Positions 10,433 to 27,252 of a DNA stretch of 43,686 nucleotides are shown in pieces; positions within the stretch are counted from its first letter, which is position 1; every line of letters starts with the position of its first letter. Under the pieces are notes generated by a model. That model saw only the letters and a list, made by a program, of their open reading frames with translations. It was not told the origin of the DNA and searched no databases. The translations under genes were made by a program, and so were the position numbers. Origin of the DNA: Verrucomicrobiales bacterium (GTDB lineage Bacteria; Verrucomicrobiota; Verrucomicrobiia; Methylacidiphilales; JAAUTS01); assembly GCA_031265365.1 (NCBI GenBank), contig JAISCS010000206.1, positions 1 to 43,686 of the forward strand, written 5' to 3'.

Positions 10433-10462
10433 TTGAATATTTTTTCCGAATGTTGCTATATT
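10433..10462 (+). promoter_or_regulatory. candidate sigma70-like promoter of uvrA
   Basis: TTGAAT (10433-10438) and TATATT (10457-10462) are separated by 18 bases. A start of transcription about seven bases downstream would fall only a few bases before the uvrA ATG at 10472, implying a leaderless or very short-leader mRNA. No Shine-Dalgarno sequence is visible. This is pattern matching only. Confidence 0.4.
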
Positions 10463-10471
10463 TTCCCCTTC

Positions 10472-13400
10472 ATGGCCACCCACGATTTCATCAAACTCCG
10501 CGGCCTCCGCGAAAACAATCTCAAAGGTTTCGACCTCGACCTCCCGCTTAACCAATTCATCGTCGTCACCGGCCTCAGCGGCAGCGGCAAATCCTCGCTG
10601 GCGTTCGACACCATCTTCGCCGAGGGCCAGCGCCGTTACACCGAGACCTTCTCCCCCTACACGCGCCAGTTCCTCGAACGCATGAACAAACCCAAGGCCG
10701 ACAGCATCGAGGGCATCCCGCCCGCCATCGCCCTAAGCCAGGTCAACTCCGTCCGCACCTCCCGCAGCACCGTCGGCTCCATGACCGAAATCGCCGATTA
10801 CTTGAAACTGCTGTTCCCCACCCACGCCGAGCTTCGCAGCCCCGTCACCGGCCAAAAAATCCAGCCGTGGACCCCCGCGCAAATCGTCGCCGAACTCCTC
10901 GCCCGTCACGCTGACACTCAAGTCCTTGTCACCTTCGACCTCGCGTTCTCCGCCAGCATCTCCTGGCCCGCCATCGTCCAAACCCTCCAAGCCCAAGGCT
11001 TCACTCGCGTCCTTTGGAATGACCAACCCGCGCGCCTCGACGACCTGGCAAACGTTACCGCCAGCGCCCCGCTCACCATCAGCGTCATCGCCGACCGCCT
11101 CACCGTCAGCGCCGAAACCCAATCCCGCCTCGCCGAAGCCATCCAAACCGCCCTCCAACACGGCAAAGGTCTAGTCACCATACGACCTATAAGTCCTATA
11201 CGACCCATAAGACCTATAACCTACGCCGACCATTACCTAGACCCCGCCACCCACCACCTCTACACCGCCCCCACCCCCGCTCTCTTCTCCTTCAACAGCC
11301 CCATCGGCGCCTGCCCCGTCTGCAAAGGCTTTGGCCGCACCGTCACCATCGACTACGACCTCGCCCTCCCCGACCGCACCCTCACCATCAGCGGCGGCGT
11401 GGTCAAATGCTTCTCCGGCCAGACCATGCAAGAATGCCAGCGCGACCTCCTCAAAGCCTGCCGCAAACACCGCATCCCCGCCAACATCCCCTTCAACCAA
11501 CTCACCAAAGCCCAGCAAAAATTCGTCATCCACGGCGAAATCACCCCCGGCAAAACCCTCGAACAATCCTATGACGACGGCGAATGGTACGGCGTCAGCG
11601 GCTTCTTCAAATGGCTCGAGATGCGCACCTACAAAATGAATGTCCGCATCCTCATCGCCCGCTACCGCGCCTACCACCCCTGCCCCGCCTGCCACGGTGA
11701 CCGCTTCAAACCCGAAACCACCCTCTGGCAACTCCACGGTAAAACCATCACCACCATCAACGCCACTCCCCTCCGCGACCTCGCCCCGTGGTTCGCCAAC
11801 CTCACCGTCAGCGACGCCTCTGCCAAAATCCTCCTTCACCAAATCACCGCCCGCCTCGCCTACCTCAACCAAGTCGGCCTCGGCTACCTCACCCTTGGCC
11901 GCGCCAGCCGCACCCTCAGCGGCGGCGAACTCCAGCGCGTCAACCTCACCACCTGCCTCGGCACCAGCCTCGTCGGCACCCTCTTCGTCCTCGACGAACC
12001 CAGCATCGGCCTCCACCCCCGCGACACCGCCCAACTCACCAACATCCTAAAAACCCTCGCCCGCCAGGGCAACACCGTCCTCGTCGTCGAGCACGACGCC
12101 GCCATCATCCGCGCCGCCGACCACCTCATCGAACTAGGCCCCCGCGGCGGCGCCGACGGCGGCCACCTCATCCACAGCGGCCACCCGGACAAATTCCAAA
12201 CCTCAAATCTCAAACCCCAAATAAATTCCAACCACAAAATATCAAATTCCAAAACCATCTCGCTCACCGCTGACTATCTCTCAGGCCGCCGCGTCATTCC
12301 TCTCCCCGACAAACGCCGCTCCGTTGACGAACACACGCCGCGGCTTGCTTTCAGCGGCGCGTCCAAACACAACATTCACCACCTCGCCGGCCAAATCCCC
12401 CTCGGCAAATTCACCGCCATCACCGGCGTCAGCGGCAGCGGCAAAAGCACCCTCGTCCGCGATATAATCGCCCCCGCGGTGAAAACAATGCTCTCCACCA
12501 AACCACACCGCCGCCGCGACGCCGGGGCGGTTTGGAATTTGAAATCTGGAATCTGGAGCTTGGTTGGAATTTGCGATCTGGAATTTGGCATTTGCGAGGT
12601 TTTAGTCGTCGACCAAAGCCCCCTCACCCGCAGCGCCCGCAGCACCCCCGCCCTCTACCTCGGCGCCTACGACCACATCCGCCAACTCCTCGCCGGCACC
12701 GACAGCGCCCGCCGCCTCGGTCTCACCCCCGCCGACTTCTCCTTCAACACCGGTGCCGGCCGCTGCCCCCGCTGCGCCGGCGCCGGCCACGAAAAAATCG
12801 AAATGCAATTCCTCTCCGATGTTTTCATCACCTGCCCCGTCTGCGACGGCAAACGTTTCCAAGACCACGTCCTCACCGCCGACTACCGTGGCAAAAACAT
12901 CGCCGACCTCCTCTCCCTCACCGTCAGCGAAGCCATCGCCTTTTTTAACTCCAGCCACGCGAAGGCGCAAACACCAGGTGAACAACGCGCGTGCTTAAAA
13001 ACCGCCGCCGCGCTGCACCTGTTGGAACAAGTCGGCCTCGGCTACCTCACCCTCGGCCAACCCACCAGCCACCTCAGTGGCGGCGAAGCCCAGCGCTTAA
13101 AACTCGTCGCCGAACTAACCGCCGCCCCCCTCAAAAAACTCCGCGGCTCCGCCTCTCCGCGCGAACCAAAAGGAAAACTAATCATCCTCGACGAACCCAC
13201 CACCGGCCTTCACTACGAAGACCTCCGCGTCCTGCTCGGCGTCCTGCAAACCCTCGTTGACCGCGGCCACACCCTGCTAGTCATCGAACACAACATGGAA
13301 CTCGTCAAATGCGCCGACTGGGTCATCGACCTTGGCCCCGAAGCCGGCGACCAAGGCGGCCAAATCATCGCCGAAGGCACCCCCGAACAAATCGCCGTCC

Positions 13401-16291
13401 ACCCCGCCAGCCGCACTGCCCCCTACCTAGCACAAGCCCTTCGGGGAACCGATGCGGACTTCCGAGGAGCCTATGCGGACTTCCGAGGAACCGATGCAGA
13501 CTTCCGAGGAGCCTATGCGGACTTCCGAGAAGCCTATGCGGACTTCCGAGGAACCTACGCGGACTTCCGAGAAGCCTATGCAGACTTCCGAGGAACCTAC
13601 GCGGACCTCCGAGGAGCCTATGCAGACTTCCGAGAAACCTACGCGGACTTCCGAGGAACCTCCCCCGTCCCCTCCCCCCCCGCCATCCAAATCACCGGTG
13701 CCACCCACCACAACCTAAAAAACCTCACCGTCAGCATCCCCCGCCAACAAATGACCGTCATCACCGGCCTCAGCGGCAGCGGCAAAAGCACCCTCGCCTT
13801 CGACCTCCTCTTCGCCGAGGGCCAGCGCCGCTACCTCGACTGCCTCAACAGTTACGCCCGTCAATTCATCGAACAACTCGAAAAACCCCGCGTGGACGCC
13901 ATCACCGGCATCCCCCCCACCGTCGCCATCGAACAACGCGCCACCCGTGGCGGACACAAAAGCACCGTCGCCACCGTCACCGAAATCTACCACTTCCTCC
14001 GCCTCCTCTACGCCAAACTCGGCGCCCAGCACGACCCCGCCACCGGCACCCCCTGCATCCAACAAACCCCCGCGCAAATCACCACCCAAATCAAAAAACA
14101 ACTAACCACCGCCCGCGAACACCTCCTCCTCGCCCCCCTAATCCGCGCCCGCAAAGGCAACTACACCGAACTCGCCGCCTGGGCCGCCAAAAAAGGCTAC
14201 CCCTACCTCCGCGTCAACGGCACCATCACCCCCACCGCCGACTTCAAACCCCTCAACCGCTACCGCGAACACACCATCGACCTAATCATCGCCACCCTCA
14301 CCCCCCGCACCCCCAACCTCCCCGCCCTCATCACCCAAGCCTTAGACCACGGCAAAGGCACCCTTATCATCAGACCCATAGGAACTATCCACCCCACAGA
14401 AACCACTCACAGCACCCACCTCTATAGCCCCGCCACCGGTAAATCCTTCCCCCCGTTAGACCCCCGACTCTTCTCCTCCAACTCCCCCCACGGCTGGTGC
14501 CCTCGCTGCCAAGGCTACGGCACCCTCGCCAACCTCTCCGCCGACGCCACCCTCACCCCCCTCGAACAAGAACAACAACAAGAACTAGCCCGCGAACACC
14601 TCGACGACCTCGCCGCCACCCCCTGCCCGGCCTGCCACGGCACCCGCCTCAACGAAACCGCCCGTGCCGTCCGCTTCGCCGGCCGCCCCGTCACCGACCT
14701 CAACGCCATGACCGTCAGCGCCCTCGACCGCTTCCTCACCACCCTCAAACTCAAAGGCCGTGCCGCCGCCATCGCCCGCGACATCCTGCCCGAACTCCGC
14801 CAACGCCTCCAATTCCTCCGCCACGTCGGCCTCGACTACCTCAACCTCGACCGCCCCGCCCCCACCCTCAGCGGCGGCGAAGCCCAGCGCATCCGCCTCG
14901 CCGCCCAACTCGGCTCCAACCTCCAGGGCGTCCTCTACATCCTCGACGAACCCACCATCGGCCTCCACCCCCGCGACAACGCCGAACTCATCAAAACCCT
15001 CCGCCACCTCCAACAACGCGGCAACACCCTCGTCATCGTCGAGCACGACGAAGCCACCATGCGCGCCGCCGACCACATTATCGACCTCGGCCCCGGCGCC
15101 GGCGTCAACGGCGGCCAACTCATCGCCCAAGGCACCTGGCGCGCCATCACCCGCAACCGCCGGTCCCTCACCGGCAAACTCCTCGGCGCCCCGTTACCAC
15201 ACCCCATGCGCGGCACCCGCCGCAAAACCGACCGGCACACCCAATGGCTCACCATCCCCAACGCCACCGCCAACAACATAAAAAACCTCACCATCAAACT
15301 CCCCCTGGGTAAACTCATCGGCATCAGCGGCGTCAGCGGCAGCGGCAAAAGCACCCTAATGCACAAAATCATCATCCCCGCCGTGCGGAAAAAAATTGAA
15401 ACCAGAAAACAGAAAGCAAAAATTTCAGCTTCCAACTTTCAGCTTTCCAATTTAGTTCAAGTCACCCAAACCCCCATCGGCAAAACCAGCCGCAGCACCG
15501 TCAGCACCTACCTTGGACTCATGGACCGCCTCCGGCAACTCATGGCCCAGCTCCCCCTCGCCAAAACCCGCGGCTACACCCCCGCCCACTTCTCCTACAA
15601 CGCCGGCCCCGGCCGCTGCCCCGCCTGCCAGGGCCAGGGCTTTCTAAAAATTGACATGAACTTCCTCCCCACCGCCTACATCCCCTGCGACCAATGCAAC
15701 GGCCAGCGCTGGACCGCCCCCATCCTCGAAATCACCTACCACGACAAAAACATCTACCAAATCCTCACCCTCAGCGTCGACGAAGCCGTCGAATTTTTTG
15801 CCGGCCAGCCCACCGTCCAAGTCCCGCTGAAACTCCTGCAAGAAACCGGCCTCGGCTACCTCACCCTCGGCCAAACCAGCCCCACCCTCAGCGGCGGCGA
15901 AGCCCAGCGCCTTAAACTCGTCACCGAACTCGCCAGCCTCCGCCTCCAAGAACACCGCCAGCGCCCCGCCACCCGCGCCGCCGGCGCCGGGCGAACCCTC
16001 TATCTGCTGGAAGAACCCACCGTCGGCCTCCACCTCGCCGACGTCCAAAGATTGCTTGAAGTCCTGCACCAACTCGTTGACGCCGGCCACACCGTCATCG
16101 TCATCGAACACCACCTGGACCTGCTCGCCGAATGCGACCACCTCATCGACCTCGGCCCCGAAAGCGGCGCCAAAGGGGGCCGCGTCATCGCCGCCGGCCC
16201 CCCCGAACAAATCGCCGGCAACCAACGCAGCCACACCGGCCGCTACCTCCGCCCCCTGCTATATCTCCCAAAAATCGACGCGGCCAAATAG
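10472..16291 (+). CDS. uvrA: tandem-duplicated excinuclease ABC subunit A
   Basis: This giant UvrA has 1939 residues, about twice the normal 940. UvrA is the damage-sensing ATPase of nucleotide excision repair. Two complete UvrA units are fused, giving four ABC ATPase domains: Walker A motifs lie near residues 34, 652, 1099 and 1620, and each domain has an LSGGE signature and a Walker B ([27 protein letters not shown], and [10 protein letters not shown] near 1845-1853). Zinc-binding CxxC pairs occur in each unit ([24 protein letters not shown]...CPVCDGKR and the equivalents in unit 2). Tandem UvrA is known from chlamydiae. Six repeat-like segments are inserted in frame, including ten 7-residue repeats in the linker (992-1061). 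The coding strand is very C-rich. It converges on guaB with nine bases between stops. I use the ATG at 10472. Confidence 0.95.
11181..11222. repeat. in-frame repeat-like insert in uvrA (RPI repeat)
   Basis: Imperfect copies of a TACGACCTATAAG-type unit encode an [15 protein letters not shown] stretch. The second UvrA unit has at the same point a shorter [13 protein letters not shown]. The AT-rich base composition contrasts with the gene around it. Confidence 0.6.
12192..12258. repeat. in-frame repeat-like insert in uvrA (CAAAT type)
   Basis: The segment is built of CAAATC / CAAATTCCAA units and encodes an Asn/Ser/Lys-rich loop (about residues 574-596) between the first and second ATPase domains of unit 1. 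The same type of DNA, on the other strand, is at 12529-12600. The AT content is far above that of the gene around it. Confidence 0.65.
12529..12600. repeat. in-frame repeat-like insert in uvrA (GGAATTTG type)
   Basis: Units such as GGAATTTGAAATCTGGAATC encode a Trp/Leu/Gly/Ile-rich loop at about residues 687-710, just after the second Walker A helix. It is the complement in type of the insert at 12192. In the second half of the protein the same loop holds a different insert (15386-15455). Confidence 0.65.
13139..13172. repeat. family B unit inside uvrA
   Basis: CTCCGCGGCTCCGCCTCTCC followed by GCGCGAACC is the family B pattern seen in the intergenic hairpin at 3982-4060 and beside family A elements. 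Here it is read in frame as an Arg/Gly/Ser-rich loop between the LSGGE signature and Walker B of the second ATPase domain. Confidence 0.6.
13445..13654. repeat. ten tandem 21-bp units in the uvrA linker
   Basis: Ten consecutive 21-base units encode the heptapeptide [GE][AT][YD]AD[FL]R, with no interruption (residues 992-1061). The array joins the two UvrA units. Single-base differences between copies are mostly GGA/GAA, GAT/TAT and TAT/TAC. It is a variable-number tandem repeat candidate and not a CRISPR array, since there are no spacers. Confidence 0.95.
15386..15455. repeat. in-frame repeat-like insert in uvrA (TTTCAGCTT type)
   Basis: An A-rich part followed by TTCAGCTTCC / TTTCAGCTTTCC units encodes a Lys/Arg/Ser-rich loop at about residues 1639-1662. 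It occupies the loop that in unit 1 carries the insert at 12529-12600, but the sequence type differs. Confidence 0.6.
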
Positions 16292-20810: not shown

Positions 20811-21473
20811 TTATTCTTCCGCACCCATCATCACGCGGCGGATTTTTTTCAGGCCGTCCTGCATTTTATCAGGCAACCGCAACGGCGGGTCGGGCGGTGG
20901 CGCGTAGGAATACACAACCTGCATCACGGCGGAATCAAGGCATAATGGAAAGAGCTTCTCAACATCCACCCACGCGGTCCATTCGTTGTTTTGATAAACG
21001 TGACACTTGCGACCCTGCCACGGCTTGACGCCTCGGTAAGTACTCGCCGTAATCCATTTCAAGTTTGGCAGCACGTCCTCAGGCGGCGATTGCGAAAAAT
21101 CCCAAGTTTTCATGTCCTGGGACACGCGGTGAAAGCGGAGGTCACCGTAGCGCCAAAATTCATACCGCAGATTATTGGTGTATTCGCGCGTCTCCAAACC
21201 GACAGTGCCACTCATGGCAATTTCCAATTTTAGCACCTGCGGCGAGGCGTTGAAAAAATCCCGCACCTTTTGTTGTGCCGGGGTTAGTTTGGGGTCAAGC
21301 GGTTTCTGTTTGTAAGTGAAGACGGCACTGATGGTGACGTCAGTGGCCGACGAGTTACGGTAAAGTGGCGTTGGCGGTGTTAATTTGGACTTGGTTTCCG
21401 CTGCCGTCACCGTCAACGCCAAGGCTAGAAACACAACGCTGACACTGAGGAAAATACTGGTTTTGTTATTCAT
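20811..21473 (-). CDS. secreted protein of unknown function
   Basis: A 220-residue protein that I do not recognise. The first 25 or so residues form a signal peptide (MNNKTSIFLSVSVVFLALAL then TVTAA). The mature part has many aromatic and charged residues, with recurring W (for example KTWDFSQSPP, VKPWQGRKCHVYQ), as in small beta-rich periplasmic or outer-membrane proteins. I start it at the ATG at 21473; the open frame extends upstream into the preceding gene, which is not credible. It starts just four bases beyond the stop of the Verru_Chthon-type gene, so the two are probably one operon and may act together. Confidence 0.75.
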   Translation of the reverse strand: MNNKTSIFLSVSVVFLALALTVTAAETKSKLTPPTPLYRNSSATDVTISAVFTYKQKPLDPKLTPAQQKVRDFFNASPQVLKLEIAMSGTVGLETREYTNNLRYEFWRYGDLRFHRVSQDMKTWDFSQSPPEDVLPNLKWITASTYRGVKPWQGRKCHVYQNNEWTAWVDVEKLFPLCLDSAVMQVVYSYAPPPDPPLRLPDKMQDGLKKIRRVMMGAEE

Positions 21474-21477
21474 AATT

Positions 21478-24400
21478 TTACTCCACCACCGGTTCGAGTT
21501 GCTGGTCCACAATCTCCCCGGTGAACCGGTCAATGGCGATGTGTAGCCAGTAATGTTTTTCACCCTCGACGATGAAATTTCGCAAGTCGTTCACGCCGGA
21601 GCCGTAACGCCCGACTTGCGCGACAAGGTCAATCAACAAATTCCAAGTCCGCACTTGCACACTGCCGGTGAGCGCGCGCAACACCGCCTCATGCCGCCCC
21701 TTGCTGTCAACGGAGAAATTGGCCCTGTCAATTACGCCATTATTGCCCGACATCACGACTGGCAGGTCGCCAAGGCTGGACAGCGGCAGTGCCCCGGCGC
21801 GCTCGTTGATAATTCGGGCGATTTTTGACATGTCACTGGCGGTAAGCGTGTCGTTGTCGCTGACGGTGGCGGTGCCGGATGAAAATTTTGCGTAGTCATT
21901 GGCAGCGCCACTGATGATGGATTCCAGCACCAGCGCGCCGCCGTTGTTGTAATCACGTGCGGCACTGTTGAGATTAATTTTGCCCGCGACCGCGGCAACC
22001 GCGGGCGTGCCACCGTCAGCGCGCGGCACACCGCTGCCGATGTAAAAAACATCGAGCAAGCCGGTGTCGGCGCTGTTGGCGGAAAACAAATTCAACGTTT
22101 TCCACGGGTCGTCGCGAAACACATAACCCAGCTCGGCCATGCTGCGAAAGCGGCGGTTGAGCATGATGGGCCGGCGGCTCGCCGCTGACGATGCTTGCGG
22201 CGCATAACCTTGGCCACCGACAGCATCAGCGTGGCGGAGTACAAAATCACGGTCGGTGTAGTAGGTGCCGTTCGCCTGTTCATTGCTTGCCCAGTTTGCC
22301 ATGCTTTTGGTAACGCGCATGAATGTGGCATTGCCGTTGGAATCAATCGGACCGTTCGGCGACTCCGTCGGCCTTTCGCCGTCTCTGTAAAAATGCGGTC
22401 CCCAAGTGAATTGTCTGTCAAGATTGACCTGCTCCGATGGATTAAAATTGAACGCCAGCACGGACTGGTTGTTTTGGAAACCGTTGGGAATGCCGCTTGG
22501 CGAGTCCGACAGTTGCAGATTGGTCCGCTGCGAGCGCGGGTCGCTGAAATATAAGGCCACGGCCTCCTTGTTATTCGCGCGCCGGAAGATGTTGGGCACC
22601 AAATTACTGGCATTATTGGTAATAAGCCGTCTTGCCGGCATATTTTGCCCCGGACCAATTTGCTGCCATGCATTATTGACAATATACTCATAGTATTCCG
22701 GCACAATAGCGTCATAATTGGTGTTATTCCAAGTGGGGTCATTTTCCTCCATGAACGGGTTGCCGCGTCCCTCAATGTCATTGGTTATGGAATTCAACGT
22801 TTGGTAGGTGTGCCAAGTGCCGGGACTGGCCGGGTCCTCGTATTGCAGATGAATGCGTATCGGCCCGCCGCTGGCCTCAAATTCACCTGTCGCGGTTTCC
22901 CTCAGCAACGGCCAAAAACGGCTGTAAACCACGGCACCCCCGCCAAGTGGCGGATACCGATAGTTGCTGGGTGGGATATGCGTCCATTGCCGGGCGTCCC
23001 TATTAGTTTCCCGCCACCAATAAAACCTTTTTCCGTCACTGTCAACTTCTTCCGGCTGGCCACCACCGCCGGTGACGGTGATTGTCGGCGGGTCATTATA
23101 CATCGGAAAAAGCGGCTCGGTCTGTGGAATCTTGAATGGATTTTCCGGCGCATACGACCAGCCGGTATAAATGGCGGCGCGCTTCCAGCCATATTGCGAG
23201 CGCACGATGCCAAAGCGGTCATTCAGGTTTGCGCTGCCCGGATTTTTGGAGTCCGAGGTGTAGGCTTTGTCTATGCCTGAATTAATCAAGTCCGTCGGCT
23301 CGGCACAATTATTATAGTCAGCCAGCTTGAACGCCACCCACGCCGGACCGGACGGAGTAGTGTTCGAGGTCGGCGACGGGGCGGTGGACGGCACAAGCGC
23401 GCGGTTGAGGCCGAGAAAAGTCCGCCTTTGATAATAGTGCCCCTCCTCGGACGCCACATCCTGATATTTTGAAAAATCATGAATCTGCGGGCAAATACTG
23501 CCATTGGTGGCGAGAATCCTCACACTCGGCGGGCGCAACGCGATACCGGAGTTCAACAAATCAGCGGCGTTTTGGTGCGGATTCCACAGGCCGAAATTCA
23601 GCCAGCTATGCAAATAAGCATGCCAGTCGTTGGGCCATATCGTATTGTCAACTGCACCCTCCGCGAAGCTGACGACGCTCTGGCCGATTGACAAAATATA
23701 AGGCAAATTTTCCACGCCGTAAAATGACTTGCCGCCCATGCGGATTTCCGTCGGAAAATTGTCCTCGTCCCACTGGTCAATGATGTTCGCGCCAATCTGT
23801 AAAATTTGATGTTTTTCCTGCGCGTAAATCAGCGCATATATATCATCGCTTATGGCCTCAAAACGTCCGATTGGGGCGCTGATGATGGAGCCGCGGTTGC
23901 CGCGATTGTCGGTAAAAACCTGCATGTCTTGCATGCGCCGGAACTCGCCGCGATTTAAGGCCAAGTTGGACTCCGGATATCCGGTGGTGAGACCAAGGCT
24001 GCCCCGCAAAATGACGGCTTGGAGCAACTCGAAAAAATCCGGCTCACGCCCGGCGGCAGCCACTTCCGCCAGGGTGCAAATCCGCACACGCTCGTCGCTA
24101 GTGCGCCCGCCATGGTCGTATTCCCATGCGCCGCCGATGCACACACCGTTACTGGGATTAACCGTGCCATCGGGTATGCGGCGCAATCCGAAATTATCAT
24201 ATATATTTTTCTCAAAGTCAGCGTCAGCGGGAAAATAACTTGGCCGCACGCCGTTGAACCTCAGCCAGTCAATTTTTGCAAGGTCGAAGCGATACTTGAC
24301 CAGCGACTCGCCAACTTCCATCCTTTCGCCGCTCAATCTCGTGCCGCTGACGCTGACAGTGACGTTGGGAATAAAGCGATTGTTCGAGGCGGGGTCATCG

Positions 24401-25552
24401 CGCTTGGCATAATAATCGTAAGTGGGGCGGGTGCCTGTGTCCGGGTCAATTGGCGTGAGCATTCCCGGATTATTGATACCGCTCCAAAACTCGGCGTCAT
24501 GGGCCGGTCCCCAAGAGGGCGCGTTTTTCTCGCGCGAAAATGTTGTGAAATACGGGTAAAAGTCCTCGAAGCCAAGCCGTTGCGCGGCGTCGAGAAAATC
24601 CTGCCGGCTGACAAACACACTGTCACCGTCAGCGACGCGCCGGAACCCGCTGGCCGACGCCGCGCCGGTGCCGCTGAGGTATTCGACGTAGGTCGTGCCA
24701 CTGGCCGCGCTCTGACGGTTGCGATACTCCTTGACCAGCTCGTCAACATCAGCGGCGCCCAAGCCGAGCCGGGTCAGGTCGGCGTAACCGACATTACCCT
24801 TGCGCGCGACCTCGTCGTCAGCGACATCGCTCGCGTGCCCGATGGCGTTGATGTCCGGCAAGCCGCCCGTGTCATACACGATGTAGGCGTAACGACCGAT
24901 GACAAAATCCGCGTTGCCCGCGACACTGTCAGCGAGCGTGCCGGAGCTGAGCAACGCCTCCGCCCGTTCCGCCGCCAGCGGCCCGCGCCGTGTGAACAAC
25001 ACCCAGTGCGGGTCAATGCTCGTCGCCAGCGTGTCGCTGTTGCCGATGAACGCCCGCTCCCAACGCGCATGGTCAATATAGCGGCCATTCGCCGCCGGTG
25101 TCGCGGCGCTGACGTTGACCGCCGGCGCGCCGCCGCTGGCGGTGAATTCGTCACCCTCCCACAGCGGGCGGTCATTCGCGCTCCATTTGATAAGATTAAA
25201 CGGCACCGTGCCGCTACCGCTAAGGTCCGCGTCGCGCACCATGCGGAACGGCAGCATATTTTCGGGCACCGCCGGTTCGAACGCCCCCGCCGAACCGTTG
25301 ACCGTGGAGCCGGCCTTGATTTCCTCTAACAAATCCGCCTTGACGAAATCCAGCGCGCTGGCGGCGAGCACCTGCGCCCGCGCCTGCGCCGCGCTGGAAA
25401 AGGAAATTTTTCGATTCAACCGCGCCTGGCCGAAGAAGGCGAGCACGCTGACGGTTATCAACAGCAGCGCGAACAGCGCGATAATGAGCGCCGCGCCACG
25501 GGAAGCCCAGCCTTGACTAGCAACTAAATAGTGTCTACCCCCCCCCCCTCAT
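21478..25552 (-). CDS. Verru_Chthon cassette protein A-like, prepilin-like; start out of frame at a G tract
   Basis: A very large (about 1350 residues) extracytoplasmic protein with a type IV prepilin-like N-terminus: a short basic leader, then SRGAALIIALFALLLITVSV as the helix, then a Gln/Ala-rich stalk. This, the length and the C-terminal WNLLIDLVAQVGRYG...HYWLHIAIDRFTGEIVDQ pattern match what I know of Verru_Chthon cassette protein A. The function of the family is unknown. The continuous frame has no credible start: TTG at 25461 lies inside the hydrophobic helix. Upstream, ATG at 25552-25550 is followed by eleven G and is one base out of frame; with ten G it would read M-R-G-G-G-R-H-Y-L-V and join the frame exactly. 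So it is phase-variable, frameshifted, or misread. The usual companion prepilin genes (B, C, D) are absent; gdhA is upstream. Confidence 0.75.
25538..25548 (-). repeat. homopolymeric tract of 11 G (coding strand)
   Basis: Eleven C on the + strand, thus eleven G in the direction of the gene, immediately after ATG-A. One fewer G restores the reading frame of the downstream 1350-residue protein. Tracts of this length are prone to slipped-strand mispairing and also to sequencing error. Confidence 0.9.
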
Positions 25553-25559
25553 TAAATAT

Positions 25560-25574
25560 TTATACATTGTATAA
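25560..25574. promoter_or_regulatory. 15-bp palindrome TTATACATTGTATAA
   Basis: A perfect inverted repeat with 7-base arms and a one-base centre, lying eight bases upstream of the candidate ATG at 25552. In the gene direction it contains TATACA and TGTATAA, so it may be a -10 region, an operator, or both. No convincing -35 was found. Confidence 0.35.
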
Positions 25575-25698
25575 TGTGTGGAAATATCCGATTGTTGAAG
25601 GAGCGTGTTTCGTTTGTGCGACTTTTTCATTTTTGCAATATTCCATTCCCTCACTGGAAAATGCAAGCATTTTTTATTTGATTTTTCACCGCCGTAAC

Positions 25699-25731
25699 AA
25701 AACAGCCCCGGTGTTGTGCCGGGGCCGTTTT
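25699..25731 (-). terminator. bidirectional intrinsic terminator of gdhA
   Basis: GCCCCGG (25705-25711) and CCGGGGC (25719-25725) form a 7-bp GC stem with a 7-base loop, extended by AAAC/GTTT outside one mismatch. T-rich runs follow in both directions (TGTTTTGTT on the minus strand). It lies 22 bases beyond the gdhA stop. Confidence 0.85.

Positions 25732-25752: not shown

Positions 25753-27252
<1,500 letters not shown>

Follow-up and report, generated by a model that had tools for sequence, protein, structure and literature searches.

The minus strand of the window (the whole 43,686-nucleotide stretch analysed here, which is contig C196 of a genome of 2.76 Mb, in 213 contigs and 78% complete) carries an uninterrupted run of eleven G that is likely to serve as the slipped-strand switch of a contingency locus with translational phase variation. 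The run stands between start codons and an intact open reading frame for a giant pseudopilin-like protein, and the gain or loss of a single base would toggle the connection between them. Similar runs recur in the leaders of other secreted genes of the genus, where related loci differ in length and phase. To judge from these comparisons, we are very probably dealing with a real system of surface variation rather than with a run that arose by chance or one isolated error of assembly. For this particular gene, the tract counts only once: it is a single case, since the orthologues in three relatives (G001-G003) and the paralogue in the same genome (C185) are tract-free.

The order at the locus, read on the minus strand, is ...TATACAATGTATAAATATTTAATGA-GGGGGGGGGGG-TAGACACTATTTAGTTGCTAG... 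The proximal ATG (25550..25552, minus strand) is followed by an A, by the G homopolymer (25538..25548, minus strand; C11 on the plus strand), whose length is exactly 11, and at once by TAG (25535..25537, minus strand), which terminates the start frame as MRGGG. The long ORF lies in a different frame, and the phase analysis joins it to the start at 10, 13 or 16 G. The sequence-only reading had described precisely this arrangement, with the frame off at eleven G and a complete N-terminus at ten, and our analysis agrees. It had also stated that no other start codon lies upstream of the helix. This is correct for the ORF's own frame, where the first ATG, GTG or TTG at 11 G is the TTG at 25461, within the hydrophobic helix, and where no alternative start bypasses the run; but two upstream ATGs do exist, the distal one at 25628..25630 on the minus strand (ATGAAAAAGTCGCAC...), hereafter ATG 25630 (ATGAAAAAG...), and another at 25567, both in the frame of ATG 25552 and both stopped by the same TAG. 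The position of ATG 25630 relative to the tract matches the starts of sibling leaders, and it may be the true start rather than the proximal ATG; the proximal MRGGG for its part matches the motif MRN-GGGG that sibling leaders carry in the relatives G002 and G003. The leader reads MKKSHKRNTLLQQSDISTHYTMYKYLMRGGG... from 25630 and MRGGG... from 25552. Finally, the gene had been called off. It is indeed out of frame in the assembly, but an assembled homopolymer length may be wrong or mixed. "Out of frame in the assembly" is how its state should be worded, because an assembly error at the locus is possible and because a reference G11 of Bifidobacterium breve turned out to hide a mixture of 37% G11 and 60% G12 (PMC9187656).

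The giant ORF (21478..25548, minus strand; 1356 residues, not in the frame of the starts when the run has 11 G) is open from a TGA overlapping ATG 25552, just before the tract, to 21478, with no internal stop, and the chance of an open frame of this length is ~2e-19 at the local G+C. Its hydrophobic N-terminal helix (AALIIALFALLLITVSVLAFF, 25432..25494, minus strand) is preceded by SRG, with a candidate prepilin cleavage site at the G. Profile matches are confined to the N-terminus: 15.6 bits to TIGR02600 (Verru_Chthon cassette protein A; residues 18-73 only, cut-off 332.3) and 22.6 bits to NF037980 (GspK of the type II secretion system; E 6e-5, residues 17-80, cut-off 130), and neither cut-off is reached. 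The protein had been called Verru_Chthon-type, a label that we reduce to a resemblance, the score being far under the TIGR02600 cut-off. Profile searches gave no relative of solved structure, the two structure models are poor (mean pLDDT of 45 and 43), and the PEP-CTERM motif (TIGR02595/PF07589) is absent from the C-terminus. The next gene (20811..21473, minus strand) begins at the extreme end of the giant ORF and encodes a secreted protein of ~220 aa that belongs to no family. It is kept downstream of the giant homologue in C185 and in G001, G002 and G003, and is likely to be a functional partner. Upstream, a near-perfect hairpin followed by T's (25705..25725, minus strand) is terminator-like on both strands (the scan listed it on the plus strand); it is likely to close the transcript of gdhA (25753-27198, minus strand), which would leave the giant gene with a promoter region of its own. 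Elsewhere in the window (10433-16291, plus strand), a UvrA-like protein of 1952 residues joins two UvrA halves in a single ORF, i.e., a double-length UvrA, the halves being ~42% identical over 589 residues.

Long G/C runs are not in excess in this genome, where we found 9 of at least 10 nucleotides against ~23 expected from base composition. Four of the five that lie away from contig edges are in leaders of secreted genes (C70 G11, C119 G10, C186 G12 and the C196 G11 of the window). Over five genomes of the genus, this is the case for 17 of 26 non-edge runs of at least 10, which are located between start and signal helix. With the opening 120 nt of genes in general as the reference, the leader placement has P ~7e-11 (with runs classified by hand and an assumed gene number of 2600). 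We excluded from these counts the tracts at the contig ends of C3, C21 and C202 and a run of 69 G in G002 (C164), all of which resemble assembly junk. Two genus members, G001 and G004, have no leader runs of 10 or more. When the pattern of the C-type leader was searched in 62 genomes of the order, it matched in G002 and G003 only, and a reversed control gave no match. A phylum-wide search for the C-type leader gave sporadic single hits in 28 of 388 genomes, and none of the seven inspected was clearly a leader with a signal helix. A more distant genome of the same class (G391) has five separate sites of ATGARR followed by C10, which may mark switch genes that form a set of their own.

Some further runs and contig ends deserve mention. 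In the window genome, a G9 lies in frame within a signal peptide (L036 290-298, contig C61) and is possibly another, shorter switch. Corresponding G9 and G10 runs, which are not in leaders, occur at the 3' end of a gene in the window genome (L040 1009-1017, C96) and in G002 (L164 2103-2112, C187), just before a conserved ATGAATACTAAACTG gene. In G004 (L149, C181), a G11 that is not a leader run is in frame within an ORF of at least 414 codons. Four contigs of G003 end at most ~65 nt from a leader tract (L167 and L168, the ends of C121 and C136; L150 and L157), and two of them have low-complexity G/C sequence after the tract, which fits either mixtures of lengths or sequencing trouble.

The phase of the tract can be tested in 17 leader genes, 4 in the window genome, 9 in G002 and 4 in G003; beyond these, two leaders are cut at contig ends and two are on contigs that end in low-complexity sequence past the tract. 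The three siblings in the window genome (C70, C119, C186) encode paralogous proteins with a signal helix and a C-terminal PEP-CTERM motif. The genus is rich in such motifs (80 in the window genome, 79 in G003, 63 in G002), so the switch leaders touch only a small share of them. Leaders come in two types. The G-type is longer and basic, and several of its members end in motifs such as FHMRN-GGGG, whereas the C-type reads MKxNxLT-PPPP-AFCKSL and has a conserved upstream region like TACTTGTCA..GTGCTTGCAAGCAGCTAATTA. Leader tracts range in length from 10 to 17. The upstream start is in frame in 4 of the 17 genes (C186 in the window genome; C133, the second copy on C137, and C164 in G002) and out of frame in 13, a count that is mildly dependent on the start chosen: G003 C96, among the thirteen, offers a second in-frame ATG closer to its tract, and in C70 and C119 a GTG or ATG in frame touches or overlaps the run. 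This proportion is close to the one third expected if lengths drift freely, and thirteen genes out of frame would have P 1e-4 if all were truly in frame and the assembly error were 30%.

Comparisons between copies point to the run itself as the conserved element. In G002, the genes on C146 (G12, read as glycine) and C184 (C12, read as proline) have passengers that are 82% identical in DNA and leaders that differ. By this comparison it is the run that is kept, not the peptide it encodes, glycine and proline being interchangeable, and leaders appear to have been exchanged between genes. Orthologues in G002 and G003 have tracts of C11 versus C14 (95% identity) and C12 versus C17 (92%), with less certain lengths in the G003 copies, which stand at contig ends. 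The dN/dS of these two pairs is 0.29 and 0.65, respectively. That of the window gene is 0.23-0.28 against C185 and G003, with dS near saturation in these comparisons. The proteins behind tract leaders thus stay under coding selection. The slipped-strand switching proposed from the window alone is strengthened by this selection and by the recurrence of the arrangement in at least 16 other secreted genes, with lengths of 10-17 in random phase.

Where the window gene obtained its leader is suggested by the flanks of the tract. The homologues of its protein (C185, 53%; G002 and G003, 51-52%; G001, 47%) have likely starts ~8-30 residues before the helix (in C185, at AAAAGGAGTTTAACT-ATG), whereas the window gene is without such a start. 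Upstream of its tract, TATACAATGTATA (25561..25573, minus strand) is found in the window genome, at up to one mismatch, only beside the three G11-12 leaders of C196, C70 and C186, in the same frame and read as YTMY, YTMY and YTIY, respectively. We considered this element as a genus-wide operator and rejected the idea: in the family searched, it occurs in the window genome only, plus one single-mismatch site in G005. In local alignments of the 220 nt upstream, C70 beats 400 of 400 shuffles and C186 all but 3. For the downstream flank, the best partner is G003 C254 (0.02), whose G12 leader carries TTAGTTGCTAG after the tract in the same frame as the window gene (25517..25527, minus strand). Most other pairs of sibling flanks do not rise above shuffles when compared with the window flanks. 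As its flanks are shared in frame with two PEP-CTERM siblings, the leader of the window gene is probably of their type, and the pseudopilin seems to have acquired this G-type leader.

The mechanism that we propose is as follows. Replication slippage would add or remove G's. Ribosomes that initiate at ATG 25630 or 25552 would translate a short basic leader and continue into the pseudopilin-like protein when the tract has 10, 13 or 16 G; any other length would bring them to a stop within a few codons (at 11 G, on the TAG right after the tract). The window gene would belong to a genus-wide set of genes, whose tract leader serves mainly PEP-CTERM surface proteins and, in this one instance, a pseudopilin with homologues that start plainly; a population would then display changing combinations of surface proteins. 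We infer in this way the actual change of length and its rate, the capture of the leader by the window gene, the surface location of the protein and the benefit of switching. Loss of mismatch repair was rejected as the cause of slippage, mutS being present in all seven genomes and mutL in six of seven. The presence of mismatch repair may slow slippage, but runs this long may still slip. A broader hypothesis, to which we grant slightly less than an even chance, is that, in this genus of termite-gut Verrucomicrobiota, exchangeable switch leaders (start, G- or C-run and signal region) have spread over many PEP-CTERM proteins, and that an unrelated giant pseudopilin has captured such a leader. A non-pathogenic symbiont would then have a combinatorial repertoire at its surface.

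Homopolymers of ten or more can provoke slippage of RNA polymerase, and some in-frame product might be made at any genomic length if the polymerase, or the ribosome, slipped on the run in a programmed manner. This would account for the conservation of proteins encoded by genes that are off. Yet C-runs and G-runs serve alike and lengths drift without holding one frame, which makes programmed slippage improbable as the main explanation, even if transcriptional slippage could add leaky expression in the off states. An assembly or sequencing error, with a true tract of 10 G everywhere and a gene that is always on, is unlikely too, if marginally less so. G runs are not reliably resolved in an Illumina consensus (PMC9187656), and the contigs of several siblings break off in low-complexity sequence at the tract, but error at a rate of 30% does not account for the thirteen leaders out of frame, nor for orthologous tracts that differ by 3-5 bases, and it leaves unexplained why pure runs of 10-17 persist at the leader position.

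Two other explanations are less probable again. A frameshift may have broken the leader and left a young pseudogene, as might be suggested by an ORF frame that has no start at 11 G and by the singularity of the tract among orthologues. We judge such decay very unlikely: 1,356 codons are free of stops, the dN/dS of the gene is not above the 0.285 found between its tract-free homologues, the downstream partner gene is retained and the siblings have the same arrangement. The least probable is that the run acts as a structure of DNA or RNA (a G-quadruplex or an element of translation control) and not through its length. Runs are near the start codon in all members, but the run on the coding strand may be G or C, and the folding of RNA around the window leader tract is not unusual (z -1.2). 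Slipped-strand switching of translation is thus the reading that we retain.

Contingency loci are best known from mucosal pathogens. If our reading is true, an uncultivated insect-gut symbiont has a whole repertoire of switches, and surface switching is important to gut commensals as well, perhaps in relation to phage, to grazing by protists or to attachment. It would also give a handle on the role of PEP-CTERM proteins. Automatic annotation will misplace the starts of tract genes or label them as pseudogenes. The named relatives in the genus are "Verrucomicrobiales bacterium" Gx481_bin192, Gx485_bin111 and Cf509_bin41. Gx485 was sampled from the lower termite Glyptotermes, and a different bin of this sample has been described (PMC11707648); the window genome, being of the same genus, presumably also comes from a termite gut.

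Phase variation by homopolymers is itself known; such loci typically switch by slipped-strand mispairing, as is established in Neisseria and elsewhere. In Neisseria, Campylobacter and Helicobacter, leaders with G-runs and with C-runs are not known to replace one another on homologous passengers. In the literature searched, we found nothing that links PEP-CTERM proteins to homopolymer phase variation, and neither leader switches of PEP-CTERM proteins, nor G/C leader interchange, nor capture by a pseudopilin. The window protein shares with GspK and Verru_Chthon A (NF037980, TIGR02600) an N-terminal RG|AAL... helix and a weak match to both profiles, but it has ~1,350 residues and is far under both cut-offs. 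The poly-G and poly-C loci of Neisseria, Campylobacter and Helicobacter, e.g., hmbR/hpuAB (PMC3786947), are alike in that changes of one base in an in-frame homopolymer toggle the translation of a surface protein; they belong to another phylum and to other protein families, and their switching has been shown experimentally. Within the same phylum, Akkermansia muciniphila has long mononucleotide repeats biased to gene ends, for which phase variation was suggested, including (G)8 and (C)10 in two capsule genes (PMC3048395); its named examples are these capsule genes, and a family of PEP-CTERM leaders has not been described there. The closest parallel in a gut commensal is found in the sortase-dependent pilus loci bbr_0113 and bbr_1889 of B. 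breve, which vary by replication slippage of G-tracts (PMC9187656). These are Gram-positive pili; a strain has no more than two of the loci, and they have been measured by deep sequencing, whereas the genus of the window belongs to the Verrucomicrobiota and has many loci, known here from assemblies, with G or C runs before PEP-CTERM proteins and one pseudopilin. In both, an intragenic run (G10-11 in B. breve) would fuse, at its productive length, the start with the ORF of a surface appendage gene, and in B. breve the annotated length proved not to be that of the majority.
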